From an uncultured Elusimicrobiales bacterium (GTDB lineage Bacteria > Elusimicrobiota > Elusimicrobia > Elusimicrobiales > Elusimicrobiaceae), in the NCBI GenBank assembly GCA_934644855.1, contig CAKUDJ010000008.1, positions 1-12,121 of the forward strand: DNA of 12,121 nucleotides. The letters run 5' to 3'. This document shows positions 3,024 through 12,121 of this stretch, in pieces. The stretch's first letter is position 1, and each line of letters starts with the position of its first letter. The notes beneath the pieces are model-generated. The model was not told the origin of the DNA. It was given only the letters and a program-made list of their open reading frames with translations, and made no database searches. The position numbers were made by a program, and so were the translations under genes.

Positions 3024-3503
3024 CTATTCGTTTACTTTTTTTAAGATGTAATACGGCGCCAACTCCCCTTGTGCGGGTTTTTTATCTTGGTCCAGCAGGG
3101 TGGCGGTATCTCCTTCCAAGCGGTAGTAGCGCGGGGCGTCCTGTTCCGCCTGCAACGTAATCACATCCCCTTGGCGCGTATAAGTGCCCACCTGGGTAAA
3201 AGACGCATCACGTCCCTCATACGTTTCGTCCAACGCAAAGCGGCCGTTTTCAAACAAAACGAGCGTGGTTTTTATGCCCGCCGCATCTGCCGCCGGGAGG
3301 GTGCCTTCGTACTTGGTATATTTGGCGGTTTGTTCCGGGGCGGCGCTTACTTCTTCCACCCGCACCCCGGATTTAGGATTTACCAAAGTACCCGGCGTGA
3401 AAGATTCCACTACTTGCGTTTCCGGCTCCGGCGCGGGCGCGGTAGAAGTACCGCACGCACCTAATAAAATACCCGCCGTTAAAACCACAAAAGATTTATT
3501 CAT
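3024..3503 (-). CDS. NlpE-like lipoprotein lacking the cysteine pair
   Basis: A 159-residue lipoprotein: signal peptide and lipobox LGAC with Cys17, then a short Pro/Ala/Glu-rich linker, then an NlpE N-terminal type domain at about 62-157. Family hallmarks are YEGTLPAADAAGIKTTLVL (65-83), FALDETYEGRD (89-99), VGTYTRQGDVITL (105-117) and YYRLEGDTATLLDQD (126-140). NlpE in enterobacteria is an outer-membrane lipoprotein that reports surface contact and lipoprotein-traffic faults to the Cpx system. Its LPCADC motif has become LPAADA here (A71 and A74), so redox or copper roles tied to those cysteines cannot apply. Only the N-terminal domain is present. GGAG lies 8 bases before the ATG at 3503, so the TTG two codons upstream was rejected as the start. 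The domain assignment is firm; a Cpx-like role is not. Confidence 0.8.
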   Translation of the reverse strand: MNKSFVVLTAGILLGACGTSTAPAPEPETQVVESFTPGTLVNPKSGVRVEEVSAAPEQTAKYTKYEGTLPAADAAGIKTTLVLFENGRFALDETYEGRDASFTQVGTYTRQGDVITLQAEQDAPRYYRLEGDTATLLDQDKKPAQGELAPYYILKKVNE

Positions 3504-3547
3504 ATTCAAAACTCCTTTTTTATTTATTTTACCAAATTAACTAACCC

Positions 3548-6835: not shown

Positions 6836-8158
6836 ATGCGTAAATTATTCCCCCTTTTGATGTTTGTTTTTCTGGCGGCCGCGTGCGCGGTGCCGTCTGC
6901 CCGGCAAACGGGCCCCGCTCCGCTGACGGATGCCATCCGGCAACAAGCGGTAAAACCCGCCGAGGTTCCCCCCAAAACGCCCCGCAAACCGCAACCCCCG
7001 GCCCTGAAAAACCCGTCTGTTTTAGACGAGCCGGACGCCCGCTACAAAGCCCTGCCTCTGCCGCAAGAAATGCGTGGCGTGTGGATAGCCAGCGTGGAAA
7101 ATATGGATTGGCCCTCCAAACCCGGCCTGCCGCCTGCGGCCCAACAAAAAGAATTTACCGATTTACTGGATTTACTCAAACAGTTAAATTTTAATACCGT
7201 TATTGTGCAAGTGCGCCCGGCGGCGGACACGTTTTGGCCCTCCCTCCAGGAGCCCTGGAGCTATTATTTAACCGGGCGGCAAGGGGTGTCCCCCCACTAT
7301 GACCCGCTTGCCTTTATGATAAAAGAGGCCCACAAACGCGGGCTTGCCTTTCACGCCTGGTTTAATCCGTTCCGCGTGCAAAATGTTTCCAAAGCCGCCC
7401 TGTCGGAAAACCACCCCATTAAAAAGCACCCGGATTGGCTAGTTTCTTACGGCGGGCGCAAATACTATAACCCGGCTATTGCCGCGGCGCGCCGCCACAG
7501 CATAAACGTCATTGCCGAAGTAGCCGAAAAATACGACGTGGACGGCATCCACCTGGACGATTATTTTTACCCCTACCCCGTCAAAAAGAACGGCAAAACC
7601 GTGCCGTGGCCGGATGCGGAACTTTATAAAAAGTACGGCAACGGGCAGCCGTTAGCCGCGTGGCGGCGCAGTAATGTCAATACGTTTGTGCATGATTTAC
7701 GCCAACGCCTCAAAGCCACCAAGCCGGAACTGCCGTTGGGGATTAGCCCGTTTGGCGTGTGGCGCAACCAATCCAAAGACCCGACAGGCTCCCCCACACG
7801 GGCCTTTTCCGCCTATGACGACGGCTTATATGCCGATTCCCGCCTATGGATTGAACAAGATTGGATTGATTATGTGGTGCCCCAACTGTATTGGCACTTT
7901 GGGCACCGCGTGGCCCCATACGGCGTACTGCTCAAATGGTGGAATAAAGAAATGGAACGCAACCCGCAGGTAAAGCTCTATATCGGTCTGGGGACTTATA
8001 AACACGGTGACGAATGGAAAGACCCGGCCGAATTAGACAAGCAGATGACGGAGCTGAAAAAATACAAAAATGTGGCCGGGGCCGTACACTTTAGCGCCAT
8101 ACGCATTAAAAACAACCAGGGGCAAGTGCAAAAGACCCTTAAAAAACATTATAAGTAA
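6836..8158 (+). CDS. DigH/YddW-like glycosyl hydrolase lipoprotein (GHL10/DUF187)
   Basis: This 440-residue protein is almost the same length as E. coli DigH (YddW), an outer-membrane lipoprotein that cleaves peptidoglycan strands stripped of stem peptides. The signal peptide ends in the lipobox AAAC with Cys17, followed by a Pro/Lys-rich tether (18-75). The barrel begins with EMRGVWIASVENMDWPS (78-94). Family motifs are VRPAADTFW (126-134), EPWSYYLTG (139-147), FHAWFNPFR (172-180), DGIHLDDYFYPYP (236-248), LGISPFGVWRN and WIDYVVPQLYW. The acidic pair D241/D242 in the HLDDY motif is in the place expected for catalytic acids. The family match is strong; the exact substrate is inferred from DigH. 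No Shine-Dalgarno is seen before the ATG, and a promoter -10 lies six bases upstream. It follows the NagZ-like gene but has its own promoter and terminator. Confidence 0.9.
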   Translation: MRKLFPLLMFVFLAAACAVPSARQTGPAPLTDAIRQQAVKPAEVPPKTPRKPQPPALKNPSVLDEPDARYKALPLPQEMRGVWIASVENMDWPSKPGLPPAAQQKEFTDLLDLLKQLNFNTVIVQVRPAADTFWPSLQEPWSYYLTGRQGVSPHYDPLAFMIKEAHKRGLAFHAWFNPFRVQNVSKAALSENHPIKKHPDWLVSYGGRKYYNPAIAAARRHSINVIAEVAEKYDVDGIHLDDYFYPYPVKKNGKTVPWPDAELYKKYGNGQPLAAWRRSNVNTFVHDLRQRLKATKPELPLGISPFGVWRNQSKDPTGSPTRAFSAYDDGLYADSRLWIEQDWIDYVVPQLYWHFGHRVAPYGVLLKWWNKEMERNPQVKLYIGLGTYKHGDEWKDPAELDKQMTELKKYKNVAGAVHFSAIRIKNNQGQVQKTLKKHYK

Positions 8159-8203
8159 AATATAGCAAGTTCTTATGCACAGGATATTTTACCAACCTGC
8201 CAC

Positions 8204-8236
8204 AAAAAACCGGGCCTATAAAAAGCCCGGTTTTTT
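8204..8236. terminator. Strong bidirectional terminator
   Basis: A perfect 12-bp inverted repeat, AAAAAACCGGGC with GCCCGGTTTTTT, encloses 9 bases. Both strands end in T6. It lies between the stop of the DigH-like gene (plus) and the stop of the helical-protein operon (minus) and terminates both. Confidence 0.9.
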
Positions 8237-8259
8237 GATATGCGTAAAAACACGCCGCG

Positions 8260-10113
8260 TTATTGTGCCGCTCCCTCGGGCATAGGCACTTGAATTTGCT
8301 GCAACTGCTGTTGGGCGCGCTCCTGGATTTGCTTGGAGGCTTCCTCGTAAGATTTTTGGTCCTTGGCGCTTGCAGCGGCTTGCGCCAGTTCTTTGGCCAT
8401 ACCGTCCAAAATAGCGCGGGCCTGTTTTTCATAGGATTTTTTGGCTTCCGCCGGCAACTGGCGCATTTCGTCGCTAGTCATAATCTTATTCAGGAAAGTT
8501 TCATTTTGTTTTTTAACGGCCTGTTCCATTTGCTCGGCCTGTTTCTTTTTGGTTTCCGGGTTATTTTGGGCTTTTTCCAATAGTTGCCGGACCGCTTTAT
8601 TGCGTTTTTCAACGGCAGCTTGGTTCTTTTCGTTAACAGACAAGCGGCCTTCGTCACTAGATAGGTTTTCCAGCACTTCGCGCTCGTATTCTTCGTCAAT
8701 AGCGGCAAACTGTTGGGCAACATCCGCACCGTAGGCCTCCGCCACGGATTTTTGGTCCTTTTGACGTTGGGCGGCAAACTGGTCTTTGTATTTTTGCTTT
8801 ACTTCTTCCGATACCACCACCCGCTCGTCACGCACTTTGCCCGATTCTACATCTTCCTTTTGCTTTTCTAATTGTTTATGCGCGTTTTGGGTGTTAATTT
8901 CATTCAAAGTGCGTCCGGCGTTAGGGTCCGTTTGGTTATGTTGAAAAACCGCCTCTTTCACTTTATCGTCACTTTCTTGTTTTAACTTTAAGTATTTTTC
9001 CTGGTACTCCGCCGCAGGCAGGCCTTCTTTCATAAGGGCCATTTTTTTAGCGGTAAAGTCATCCAGTACCGTCCGGGCCGCCGCTTCCGTTTCGGGGTTA
9101 AATTTATCCCGCAAGAGGGTTAAATATTCCTCATTTTCCCGGCGTTGTTCGGCTTCTATTTTATTAAAAGTTTCATCATGCGCCAACTGGCCTAACTGGC
9201 GTTGGTATTTGCGGTTGATTTTGCGGATAGCGTCCCCTTTTTGCTGTTGGGTTAAATCCTTACGGTTTGCGGTGGCGGCGGCTTCTTTGCGGAAGTTATC
9301 CATAATATTGCCTGCTTTACGCCCCGCAGAGGCCCCAAAGTTGCTAGCCATACCATTCACTACCGAGGATTTTTGCGATTCAATTTGAGATAAGACAGAC
9401 CCAAACGGCCCGCCCTGTTGGGAAACGGCTTCCGGCCCGCCGCCGCGGGTGTATTTTTCCACCATGGTTGCCCGTTTGGATTTGGGCGCCATGGCCCGGG
9501 CCACCGCGCGGTCTATGGCGCTGGAAATACCGGCCATTTGGCGGCGCAGGGCCTCTTGTTTGCGGCGGTCTTTTTTATTGCCCATATAAGACAAAATAGC
9601 CTCATTGGCGGCATCATACGCGGTTGCGTTTGTTTCCCCGTTAAATACGGGGCGTTGGGCACGGGATTCCGGGGCGTAGCTTGCCCCGCCCTTGCCGGCA
9701 CTGGAGGCCGAGTCCGACCCTCCCGCCAAATGCGCCTTTTGCACGGCATCGCCCGCACGGCCGGAACGCGCGGAATAAGCGGCGGGAGATTGGCCCGGCA
9801 CATACCGCGGGGTGTTTTTCAAGCTGTTGGGCCCGGCAGGAAATGCCGCCCGGGGAGAAACAGGCGCCAACGGGGCGCGTTGTTGCATTGCGGCGGGAAG
9901 CGCCGTTTGAGCGGCCCGGGACTCCCCTAAAAATTCCTGTTCTTTTAATTCTTCCAAGGCGCTGACGCGGCCCGCCCCCGGCCCGATTGCGCCCGGTTCC
10001 CGCGCGGCCCCCGCTTGCGGAACGGAGCCGGAGCGGTTCCAAAACACAACCGCAAGAGCCAGTAAAATACCCACCAGTAAACCAAAGGAAAATACTTTTT
10101 TCGTATCGCGCAT
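8260..10113 (-). CDS. Membrane-anchored, helix-rich repeat protein of unknown function (617 aa)
   Basis: Residues 7-25 (VFSFGLLVGILLALAVVFW) form one N-terminal membrane anchor after a short basic start, so the rest should face the periplasm. Residues 28-160 are low-complexity Ala/Gly/Pro/Ser and probably disordered. From about 165 to 608 the protein is dominated by Lys, Glu, Gln and Ala and should be long helices or coiled coil. By eye it holds a repeated unit starting at F259 (FGASAGRKAGNIM), F338 (FNPETEAAARTVL) and Y461 (YGADVAQQFAAID), and more weakly near Y561. Each has a second helix about 40 residues on, as in RKYQRQL (301-307). The same unit occurs in the lipoprotein encoded just upstream. 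No known family recognised. The ATG at 10113 has GGGAG 5 bases upstream; an in-frame ATG at 10125 overlaps the upstream TAA and would add four residues. Confidence 0.8.
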   Translation of the reverse strand: MRDTKKVFSFGLLVGILLALAVVFWNRSGSVPQAGAAREPGAIGPGAGRVSALEELKEQEFLGESRAAQTALPAAMQQRAPLAPVSPRAAFPAGPNSLKNTPRYVPGQSPAAYSARSGRAGDAVQKAHLAGGSDSASSAGKGGASYAPESRAQRPVFNGETNATAYDAANEAILSYMGNKKDRRKQEALRRQMAGISSAIDRAVARAMAPKSKRATMVEKYTRGGGPEAVSQQGGPFGSVLSQIESQKSSVVNGMASNFGASAGRKAGNIMDNFRKEAAATANRKDLTQQQKGDAIRKINRKYQRQLGQLAHDETFNKIEAEQRRENEEYLTLLRDKFNPETEAAARTVLDDFTAKKMALMKEGLPAAEYQEKYLKLKQESDDKVKEAVFQHNQTDPNAGRTLNEINTQNAHKQLEKQKEDVESGKVRDERVVVSEEVKQKYKDQFAAQRQKDQKSVAEAYGADVAQQFAAIDEEYEREVLENLSSDEGRLSVNEKNQAAVEKRNKAVRQLLEKAQNNPETKKKQAEQMEQAVKKQNETFLNKIMTSDEMRQLPAEAKKSYEKQARAILDGMAKELAQAAASAKDQKSYEEASKQIQERAQQQLQQIQVPMPEGAAQ

Positions 10114-10124
10114 AACATCTCCCA

Positions 10125-11168
10125 TTAAAAAGCCTGCGCCGGACGGCGGGCCTTTTTCAAACGCGCATTAAAGTTATGTTGCATAGCCGCTAATTTTTGA
10201 CGGTAAATGGCATTCAAACGGGCCAGTTCTTCTTTTTTATAACTTAAACGCGTGTTAGCCGCACCCACGGCAGCGGCGTTCTTCAAAATTTGGTTAAAAA
10301 ACGGGCGGAGTTCCAAAACGGCTTCTTTGCCGTATAAATATTCAAACCGGGTCTCGGCCTCTTGATAAGCCGCTATCATTTCCGCACGCATGGCCTGCAA
10401 TTCGTCTTCGCTCATGGACACTTTCGGGTCCCCGTATTTGGCCACCACTTGGCGCAAGGCTACATCCGCTTCTACCGACACCTGCCCCACCCGCTTTTCC
10501 ATTTCTTCCACGGTTTTGGAAGCAGAAAGGGCGGTTAAATAATCTTCTAACGCTTTATTTAATACCGGGGCCGCTTGGGCGGCACAGGCAGAACCGTACA
10601 TATTTCTTATTTCTTCCTGCATGGCCTTATTTTTGGCGGCCATTTCCGCGCGGGCGTCAGCTAATTGCTTTTGCGAAGGCGGGAACCACCCGTTCATGGC
10701 TTCTTTTTGTAAAAAAGCGTTTAATTTTTGTTGGTAGCTGCCATCTAACTCTTTGAGTTTTTCCGCCAGTTGGGCGGGAGAATCGGCCGTTTTGGCCGCC
10801 TGCGTAGCCGCCTGGTGATACGCCATAATCAGCGCTCCGGCCCGGGCGGCGGCTTCGTCTCCATAGGCTTGGCGCACGCGGCGTTCCAAATTAGCCTTTA
10901 CCGCTTGCATTTGGGCGGGCAAATCGGGCATTTCTTCCGGCGCAAGCGCCACATTCAGCGTAGCGGTATCCACCGGGTTTTTAATATCCAAAGGTTTGCG
11001 GCGCTCTTGGGCGCGCAGGTTGTTTTGTTTGGCCTTTTCCATATAGTGGGCCACATTGGCCTGCCGGGTAGGGCGCACGGAAACGGCTTTTTCATCCGCG
11101 GGCGCTTTCCCGCCGCAGGCCATTAAAAATAAAAGAAAAACAGGGAAAAAAACAGTTAATTTTATCAT
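10125..11168 (-). CDS. Predicted lipoprotein with three tandem helical-hairpin repeats (347 aa)
   Basis: MIKLTVFFPVFLLFLMAC is a lipoprotein signal peptide with the lipidated cysteine at 18. After a linker (19-80) the protein is almost wholly helical. Three units align without gaps over about 53 residues, beginning YGDEAAARAG (102), YGSACAAQAA (191) and YGKEAVLELR (279), spaced 89 and 88 residues. Units 1 and 3 share SYQQKLNAF and IYRQKLAAM at the same offset. Units 2 and 3 also share a preceding helix with RAEM in register (174 and 261). No named family recognised. The ATG at 11168 begins the signal peptide; an upstream in-frame start (11204) would lie inside the promoter. It is first in an operon with the 617-residue protein (11-base gap, or a 1-base overlap if the longer start is used). 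I infer a partnership between the two from linkage and shared repeats. Confidence 0.85.
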   Translation of the reverse strand: MIKLTVFFPVFLLFLMACGGKAPADEKAVSVRPTRQANVAHYMEKAKQNNLRAQERRKPLDIKNPVDTATLNVALAPEEMPDLPAQMQAVKANLERRVRQAYGDEAAARAGALIMAYHQAATQAAKTADSPAQLAEKLKELDGSYQQKLNAFLQKEAMNGWFPPSQKQLADARAEMAAKNKAMQEEIRNMYGSACAAQAAPVLNKALEDYLTALSASKTVEEMEKRVGQVSVEADVALRQVVAKYGDPKVSMSEDELQAMRAEMIAAYQEAETRFEYLYGKEAVLELRPFFNQILKNAAAVGAANTRLSYKKEELARLNAIYRQKLAAMQHNFNARLKKARRPAQAF

Positions 11169-11174
11169 ACTTTC

Positions 11175-11204
11175 ATTATGCAAAAATTGCGGCGTGTTTG
11201 CCAA
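11175..11204 (-). promoter_or_regulatory. Promoter of the repeat-protein operon, predicted leaderless
   Basis: On the minus strand TTGGCA (11199-11204) and CATAAT (11175-11180) are 18 bases apart, with a T-run and TG directly before the -10. The ATG at 11168 follows the -10 after only six bases, so the RNA should start at the ATG itself. No Shine-Dalgarno is present. Confidence 0.6.
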
Positions 11205-11221
11205 CGCGCGCGTAAATAAAA

Positions 11222-11253
11222 ACCCCGGGGTGTTTTTTACAAGGCCCCGGGGT
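11222..11253 (-). terminator. Rho-independent terminator after aspS
   Basis: Two 9-base arms, ACCCCGGGG (11222-11230) and CCCCGGGGT (11245-11253), pair around 14 bases. On the minus strand the hairpin is followed by TTTTTATTT. It begins 6 bases beyond the aspS stop. Each arm is itself nearly palindromic, so alternative folds are possible. Confidence 0.75.
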
Positions 11254-11258
11254 GTAAA

Positions 11259-12121
11259 CTATTTGACGATAGACAACGCCAATTCTTTTAGCTGTGCTTC
11301 ATCCACCACGTTGGGGGAATCGGTCAGCGGGCAAACCGCTTGAGCCGTTTTGGGGAACGCGATAACCTCACGGATGGAATCTTCCCCGGCCAACAAGGCG
11401 GTAATGCGGTCCAACCCGAGGCCAATGCCGCCGTGTGGAGGCGCCCCCGCTTCCAACGCGTTTAAGAGCATACCGAAACGGCGGGCGGATTCTTCTTTGG
11501 AGTATTTCATCAAAGCCAAAATGCGTTCCTGCACGTCACGGCGGCAGTTGCGCACGGAGCCGGAGGCTAATTCGTTGCCGTTCAGCACCAAGTCAAACTG
11601 ATAGGAGCGCACGGAACCGGGGTCGGTTTCCAGCTTGTCCAAATCGTCCTCGTGGGCGGCGGTAAAGGGGTTGTGGGCGGCATCCCAGCGGCCTTCTTCC
11701 GGCAAGTATTCCAAAAGCGGGAAGTCCGTAATCCACACGAAAGCCCATTTGCATTTGGGCGTTAAATTTTTTACCAATTCTTTGCGTAAAGCACCCATAA
11801 ACGGGCAGACGGTGTTGTGCTTATCACTGCCGAGCAAGATTAAATCACCCTCGCCGGCGCCGCTGGCTTCTTTTAAGGACTCCAATTCCTGCGCGGTAAA
11901 GAATTTGGCGGTCGGGCTTTCCAGCTTGCCGTCTTTTACTTTGAGCCACACCAGACCTTTGGCCCCGTTCTTTTTGGCCAGTTCGGTCAGCTTATCAATA
12001 TGCCCGCGGGAGAGCGAGGCTCCGCCGGCAGCCACCAGGGAGCGCACTTCGCCGCCGTGGGCAAGTACGTCCGCAAATACTTTGAACGCGGTGTTTTTGA
12101 AAACGCCGGACACATTTTTCA
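11259..12121 (-). CDS. aspS: Aspartyl-tRNA synthetase, C-terminal part (5' end outside window)
   Basis: AspRS joins aspartate to its tRNA in the cytoplasm using ATP. About 287 C-terminal residues are visible and the frame stays open to the right edge, so the true start lies outside. In order: the bacterial GAD insertion domain (GGASLSRGHIDKLTELAKK, then GAKGLVWLKV), the GDLILLGSDK strand, WITDFPLLEYLPEEGRWDAAHNPFT from the catalytic core, LVLNGNELASGSVRN, FGMLLNALEAGAPPHGGIGLGLDR (class II motif 3, whose arginine binds ATP) and EVIAFPKTAQA. The catalytic stretch often written GGGSIRI reads ASGSVRN, a variant I recall from the alphaproteobacterial type of AspRS. The usual AHHPFT is AHNPFT. The GAD domain shows it is the bacterial form. 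Whether it charges only tRNA-Asp or also tRNA-Asn cannot be decided without the N-terminal anticodon-binding domain. Confidence 0.97.
   Translation of the reverse strand, partial: KNVSGVFKNTAFKVFADVLAHGGEVRSLVAAGGASLSRGHIDKLTELAKKNGAKGLVWLKVKDGKLESPTAKFFTAQELESLKEASGAGEGDLILLGSDKHNTVCPFMGALRKELVKNLTPKCKWAFVWITDFPLLEYLPEEGRWDAAHNPFTAAHEDDLDKLETDPGSVRSYQFDLVLNGNELASGSVRNCRRDVQERILALMKYSKEESARRFGMLLNALEAGAPPHGGIGLGLDRITALLAGEDSIREVIAFPKTAQAVCPLTDSPNVVDEAQLKELALSIVK

Follow-up and report, generated by a model that had tools for sequence, protein, structure and literature searches.

A lipoprotein and a membrane-anchored protein built from a common module and encoded side by side in Elusimicrobiota

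In this study, two adjoining genes were investigated in a 12,121-nucleotide stretch of DNA from an uncultured gut bacterium of the Elusimicrobiales (contig CAKUDJ010000008.1 of assembly GCA_934644855.1), which is referred to as the window and whose numbering is used for the coordinates. One gene encodes a predicted lipoprotein and the other a protein with a single N-terminal membrane anchor. We observed that the two proteins are almost certainly paralogues of common origin, as judged from a comparison of their sequence profiles. Both are built from a module of 75-85 residues, present in three copies in the lipoprotein (L1-L3) and in four in the membrane protein (M1-M4). Judged from its sequence and from a model of the lipoprotein, this module appears to be an undescribed three-helix family of Elusimicrobiota, absent from the curated libraries searched.

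Common origin of the two proteins

A direct BLASTP comparison of the single lipoprotein with the single membrane protein was not significant (E 0.5). Relatives were gathered from a protein database (10 lipoproteins and 14 membrane proteins) and from whole genomes, and a profile of 25 lipoproteins was compared by hhalign with a profile of 36 membrane proteins. The result was a single co-linear match spanning 247 columns, in which residues 31-310 of the lipoprotein are paired with residues 214-497 of the membrane protein (about 280 residues), with a score of 155.9, an E-value of 7e-20 and a probability of 99.2 (score on a rerun, 152.1). Comparatively, 60 shuffles of columns 161-621 had a mean score of 20.6 and a maximum of 20.7, and the reversed family scored 19.1; shuffles of blocks of 7, 11, 18 and 36 neighbouring columns reached at most 37.6, 56.4, 89.0 and 106.0, respectively, the largest blocks preserving whole pieces of the module. 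The real match is far above all of these controls, so composition is not the explanation. A preliminary description, made from the DNA letters, had proposed that both proteins share one unit and that the two genes have a common origin, and had set a profile comparison beforehand as the test that could refute it; both proposals are supported by this significant, co-linear match, which goes beyond composition. The motif pairs quoted there also correspond, with YGDEAAARAGALIM opposite FGASAGRKAGNIM and SYQQKL opposite KYQRQL, both in register in the profile alignment.

A feature absent from that description is a [KR]xxN[IL]xxY box N-terminal to the modules and common to both proteins. Counts over 39 lipoproteins and 63 membrane proteins, those of the window among them, put R35, N38 and Y42 of the lipoprotein box at 97%, 94% and 97%; in the membrane protein the asparagine is found in 76% and K224/Y225 in 100%. 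Since the boxes stand opposite each other in the profile alignment, the homology extends past the repeats.

When the seven modules were cut out and compared pairwise, all 21 pairs aligned in register and 18 of them had a probability above 70%, the weak pairs being L1-M4, L3-M2 and L3-M4 (7-24%); reversed modules scored 9.8-16.5. L1 scored 66.5 with M1, as against 42.7 with L2 and 40.3 with L3, and the best partner of L2 was M2 (47.8), above the other lipoprotein modules. As L1 is nearest to M1 and L2 to M2, the module array seems older than the split of the genes. Counted with a module profile at a domain E-value of 0.01 or less, which gives lower bounds, three modules were recognized in 36 of 41 lipoprotein frames (both pieces of one broken gene, that of locus L005, included), and four, three and two modules in 28, 20 and 15 of the 63 membrane proteins, respectively.

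An AlphaFold model of the lipoprotein, computed from an alignment of 10 sequences, is of moderate confidence (mean pLDDT 72.7, pTM 0.42), with low confidence for the signal, the part after the cysteine and the linker. The model displays three helices per module, the first of which is closed by a Tyr-Gly pair, with helix breaks between modules at residues 159-166 and 245-254. The repeat itself, as proposed in the preliminary description, is thus retained, and the two-helix unit suggested for it gives way to three helices.

Neither protein had a significant match in Pfam, NCBIfam or the sequences of the PDB, nor a convincing one in PHROGs, the NCBIfam and PHROGs searches having been made with the window proteins, and no Pfam family covers the module in the window proteins, in 21 lipoproteins, in 30 membrane proteins or in the consensus module. 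This agrees with the earlier remark that no described family could be recognized. Matches discarded as chance include ZipA (membrane protein profile, E 0.052) and FliG (consensus module, E 0.022) among PDB sequences, arcadin-3 in NCBIfam (E 0.036), and Pfam matches of single membrane proteins down to E 0.0003. A protein search with the deep alignment returned 15 proteins, all close relatives because the candidates were selected by exact words, and the search beyond the phylum used methods that detect close relatives. No description of this gene pair was found in the available portions of the literature, which is weak evidence of absence.

Distribution, linkage and loss of the gene pair

The two proteins were sought in 340 genomes of Elusimicrobiota, with up to six candidates per genome scored with the lipoprotein profile and up to three with the membrane protein profile; matches with E<1e-70 for the lipoprotein and E<1e-30 for the membrane protein were considered strong. 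Strong matches were obtained for the membrane protein in 62 genomes and for the lipoprotein in 39. In 38 of these 39, the lipoprotein gene adjoins the membrane protein gene on one contig and strand, lying upstream with a gap of 23-228 bases; in the remaining genome, G192, reading of the locus disclosed it directly before a 377-residue frame of the same build, which the profile had missed. A lipoprotein alone or unlinked was found in none of the 39. The linkage claimed from the window therefore holds across the phylum sampled, and the search for the gene pair, which had likewise been set as a refuting test, did not yield unlinked lipoproteins. As the lipoprotein was never found without its neighbour and the neighbour is often alone, gene content suggests a core role for the membrane protein and a dependent one for the lipoprotein.

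Of 40 lipoprotein loci, counting the window, 36 have aspS upstream (in L160 with an intervening gene), and the other four stretches have no aspS. Among the 24 genomes with no detectable lipoprotein, aspS precedes the membrane protein gene on a single contig in 21; the gene is elsewhere in L087 and L180, and L188 is truncated by the contig end. A midpoint-rooted aspS tree (51 tips, frames above 500 residues) reconstructs the lipoprotein as present at the root, with seven changes, and the lipoprotein seems to have been lost repeatedly. M4 was not recovered in 11 of the 63 membrane proteins; these are 512-564 residues long, have no lipoprotein beside them and group together as a single clade in the tree of membrane proteins. 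Since they represent perhaps a single event, the tie between loss of M4 and loss of the lipoprotein is no more than suggestive. A remnant of the lipoprotein gene was sought in the lipoprotein-less locus L077, where only the upstream leader matched (E 4e-4). In L005:5426-6451 (+), an in-frame stop interrupts the lipoprotein gene, which is intact in close relatives.

A possible link between two membranes and its alternatives

The window lipoprotein has the signal peptide and lipobox cysteine of bacterial lipoproteins (Cys18), and the residue at +2 after this cysteine is not aspartate in any of the 38 parsable lipoproteins (39 in total). LolA (PF03548) was found in 17 of 20 lipoprotein genomes examined, and sorting of the lipoprotein to the outer membrane is plausible from the lipobox, the +2 residues and LolA. 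On the other side, an N-terminal hydropathy peak above 1.6 is found in 62 of 63 membrane proteins, the exception being truncated at a contig end, and a second such segment in none of the 63, which bears out the lipoprotein and the single-pass membrane protein predicted in the preliminary description. Residues 31-170 of the membrane protein are the least conserved (0.94 bits), and the distance from anchor to box, measured in 54 of the 63 members, is 97-204 residues; with such a leash and up to four modules, the membrane protein could cross the periplasm. Conservation is highest in the distal module L3 among the lipoprotein modules, and in the box and M1 within the membrane protein, and these peaks fit what is expected of binding surfaces.

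From these features a mechanism can be proposed, which takes up the suggestion of the preliminary description that the two proteins assemble and perhaps span the periplasm. An ancestral gene with the N-terminal box and several three-helix modules would have been duplicated into two paralogues. The membrane protein, as the core, would be anchored in the inner membrane through its single N-terminal helix, with a long flexible leash extending its rod of modules into the periplasm. The lipoprotein, as the dependent partner, would bear the same kind of rod and would most likely be sorted to the outer membrane. The pair would dock through like modules or through the shared box, and the docked pair would serve as a releasable scaffold between the inner and outer membrane. 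In this scheme we infer how the membrane protein is oriented, that the lipoprotein is placed in the outer membrane, that the two bind directly and that they act as a scaffold, and we give docking into such a scaffold somewhat less than an even chance.

Several observations weigh against this proposal. The membrane protein is found without a detectable lipoprotein in 24 of 62 genomes, so a bridge cannot be obligatory. Of 63 members, 29 have a higher net charge before the anchor than behind it, 21 an equal and 13 a lower one, a mixed outcome for the positive-inside test, so that we infer export of the module array from homology to the lipoprotein. The lipoprotein model has a pTM of only 0.42, which does not establish that the modules pack into a rod. 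The +2 sorting rule is a rule of E. coli, and 3 of the 20 lipoprotein genomes examined gave no LolA. As for the duplication, L3 has no clear partner module (best scores 40.3 with L1, 38.4 with M1 and 37.3 with M3), and a module tree gave no duplication order, with clean groups for L2 and L3 only.

The strongest rival, which we consider unlikely, is a chaperone of the Lif kind, in which the anchor, a disordered leash and the three-helix mini-domains would hold a client and the lipoprotein would hold the same client on the outer-membrane side. Lif (LipH; PF03280, Lipase_chap) is described, in the accessible parts of two papers, as a transmembrane helix, a variable unstructured linker and a periplasmic helical domain with three-helix mini-domains (PMC7046727, PMC13381987). 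The order of parts in the membrane protein, where the anchor, low-complexity leash and helical modules are deduced from sequence and from homology to the lipoprotein model, appears to be the same, and such a chaperone would also account for a membrane protein that functions alone. The consensus module gave PF03280 an E-value of 0.36 over positions 113-186 of 192, and nine control sequences, either reversed or shuffled, did not return PF03280. However, this score is at noise level, as the consensus has better scores with eight other families, and its reversed form matches further families equally well. PF03280 had no match in two genomes examined, and the Pfam lists of 21 lipoproteins and 30 membrane proteins, drawn up at E<=0.1, do not contain it. 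The foldase motif RXXFDY(F/C)L(S/T)A, as given in the accessible part of PMC7046727, is absent from all 39 lipoproteins and all 63 membrane proteins, and the looser R..FD[YF] was noticed in one lipoprotein only. The linker of Lif is commonly 30-55 residues according to the part of PMC13381987 available, as against the 97-204 found here, and the four modules and the lipoprotein paralogue are further differences. No lipase was detected among the Pfam-assigned neighbours, which cover part of the loci. Membership in PF03280 was rejected, the motif being absent and the consensus scoring 11.2 bits against a cut-off of 25.7.

It is improbable, in our estimate, that the paralogues are merely co-transcribed with unrelated jobs and that their linkage is a relic of tandem duplication. 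Tandem duplication by itself leaves paralogues adjacent, the membrane protein occurs alone in 24 genomes, and a hisS-aspS locus with little rearrangement would preserve the order regardless; but the lipoprotein is alone or unlinked in 0 of 39 genomes despite the apparent repeated loss on the aspS tree, which weighs against this reading.

Still less probable is a role as an adaptor or regulator of peptidoglycan enzymes, by analogy with NlpI, an outer-membrane lipoprotein of E. coli whose repeats are helical. Of the 63 membrane-protein loci, 41 have a TPR-SpoIID gene downstream, encoded on the other strand, and the window has GHL10 and GH3 genes in that place; DigH is a member of GHL10. As far as the accessible parts of the sources go, a SpoIID homologue cleaves glycan strands (PMC6635528), DigH is a denuded-glycan hydrolase (PMC12288456), and NlpI is a scaffold acting in the periplasm (PMC7049810). 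Convergent neighbours are weak functional evidence, however: a terminator-like hairpin separates them in the window, and hisS and aspS are equally conserved neighbours without such functional meaning. Unlike NlpI, neither protein has a TPR match, or a peptidoglycan-binding domain, among its listed Pfam families, and the lipoprotein has a membrane-anchored paralogue next door.

TolA and TonB, described in the available part of PMC12204202 as membrane-anchored periplasmic proteins extending toward the outer membrane, resemble the membrane protein in build, but no TolA or TonB domain is among the Pfam matches here and the partner is a paralogue. Spectrin-like and DUF1542 repeats are tandem helical units, and the consensus module scores weakly with PF18373 and PF07564 (E 0.11 and 0.33), DUF1542 being matched by 3 of 30 membrane proteins (best E 0.004); these scores are at noise level, and spectrin repeats have helices that continue from one repeat to the next, unlike the interrupted helices of the lipoprotein model. 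A spectrin repeat was rejected on the PF18373 score and the helix breaks.

Returning to the two-membrane proposal, its widest form would have one module family serving in five protein types (the lipoprotein, the membrane-anchored protein, a single-module lipoprotein, giant J-domain proteins and a large stand-alone lipoprotein), with duplication placing two rods in opposite membranes, where they dock like with like, so that a self-binding module yields a link between two membranes. We regard this full form as doubtful. If docking by like modules is true, an inner-to-outer-membrane link can arise from a single gene duplication. The pair adds an envelope module not described in the curated libraries searched, provides a case in which a lipoprotein and the membrane-anchored protein encoded next to it are almost certainly mutual paralogues and not unrelated partners, and opens a way to test ideas on the envelope of a phylum of which few members have been cultured.

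The module in other proteins, sequence features and neighbouring genes

Among the candidates scored in the 340 genomes, the lipoprotein profile had 54 matches outside lipoproteins of its own kind (E<=1e-3), of which 50 are in the membrane protein (48 genomes) and four in a small lipoprotein. Besides the lipoproteins, the membrane protein profile weakly matches two giant J-domain proteins and an 872-residue frame in genome G039; further weak matches were observed in G024, G164, G182, G192, G195 and G199, that in G195 covering the anchor region only. A search with the module profile gave a match in at least 59 of 294 genomes, where the profile's own members match by construction.

The small predicted lipoprotein, of about 112 residues, consists of one module and two extra conserved cysteines. 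Its strong matches come from five genomes, four of which harbor the longest membrane proteins (711-736 residues) and one the 377-residue form. Proteins of 1370 residues (L159:1873-5985, -) and 1250 residues (L158:48-3800, +) have a DnaJ domain and a module near the C-terminus, with module matches of 1.1e-5 and 4.4e-6, respectively. In G039, where the operon pair had no match, a predicted lipoprotein of 870 residues (L204:2547-5165, +) displays one or perhaps several modules (E 2.5e-5); its reversed sequence gave no match.

The features of the gene pair are collected in Table 1. Both frames lie as first described, with almost no gap, base 10125 being common to the stop codon of the lipoprotein gene and the first ATG of the membrane protein gene; the database copy of the membrane protein begins 12 bases further on, at MRDTKK. 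Upstream, the end of aspS (11259-12113, assigned by BLASTP) runs off the window. The pair may form its own two-gene unit in the window. The promoter-like site could have arisen by chance, as four such sites occur in 8100-11400 against 2.4 expected, and a pattern scan of the region picked up neither hairpin.

Table 1. Features of the gene pair in the window and loci of the single-module lipoprotein
Feature	Position	Strand	Description or basis
Lipoprotein gene	10125-11168	-	347 aa, with N-box and three modules behind signal peptide and lipobox Cys18
Signal peptide and lipobox MIKLTVFFPVFLLFLMAC	11115-11168	-	Cys18 invariant in 21 aligned sequences
N-box RxxN[LIV]xxYxxKA, homologous to membrane protein box	11031-11078	-	Profile alignment; residue frequencies
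Module L1, residues 80-163	10680-10931	-	Helices 85-102, 104-127, 131-159 in model
Module L2, residues 166-250	10419-10673	-	Helices 166-191, 193-216, 220-245 in model
Module L3, residues 251-347	10128-10418	-	Helices 254-279, 281-303, 308-340 in model
Membrane-anchored module protein gene	8260-10125	-	621 aa; second ATG at 10113 gives 617 aa
N-terminal membrane segment, about residues 12-29	10039-10092	-	Sequence; hydropathy scan
Low-complexity Ala/Gly/Ser/Pro-rich leash and conserved pre-box stretch, residues 31-213	9487-10035	-	Composition
PKSK[KR]xxNIEKY box, residues 214-226	9448-9486	-	Profile alignment; K224 and Y225 in 100% of family
Module M1, residues 238-321	9163-9414	-	Best L1 match, score 66.5
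Module M2, residues 322-402	8920-9162	-	Best L2 match, score 47.8
Module M3, residues 433-528	8542-8829	-	Module comparison
Module M4, residues 529-616	8278-8541	-	Matches L1 and L3 more weakly than other modules do
Promoter-like TTGGCA-18-CATAAT, 5' of lipoprotein gene	11175-11204	-	Pattern scan
Terminator-like hairpin, then TTTTTATTT (T run), between aspS and lipoprotein gene	11218-11253	-	-19.9 kcal/mol, z only -1.7
Two-way terminator-like hairpin, between membrane protein gene and convergent GHL10 gene	8200-8238	both	z about -5.4 on each strand
Single-module lipoprotein, about 112 aa	L154:2524-2862	-	
Single-module lipoprotein, about 112 aa	L155:2061-2399	+	
Single-module lipoprotein, about 112 aa	L156:2020-2367	+	
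Single-module lipoprotein, about 112 aa	L157:2002-2337	-	

Where the TPR-SpoIID gene is found (e.g. L001:10146-12320, -), it is the immediate neighbour of the membrane protein gene in 36 loci; it was assigned by Pfam for two loci and by BLASTP for the rest, and the corresponding place in the window is occupied by the GHL10 (PF02638) protein beside the GH3 gene. Prepilin-like genes, whose products start with GFTLIELLVVVLIIGIL, are scattered in many loci (L004, L068, L082, L154, L160 and others), some adjoining the operon. At 3024-3509 (-), the window also encodes a small lipoprotein, likewise predicted, that matches the NlpE N-terminal domain (PF04170, E 8e-22).

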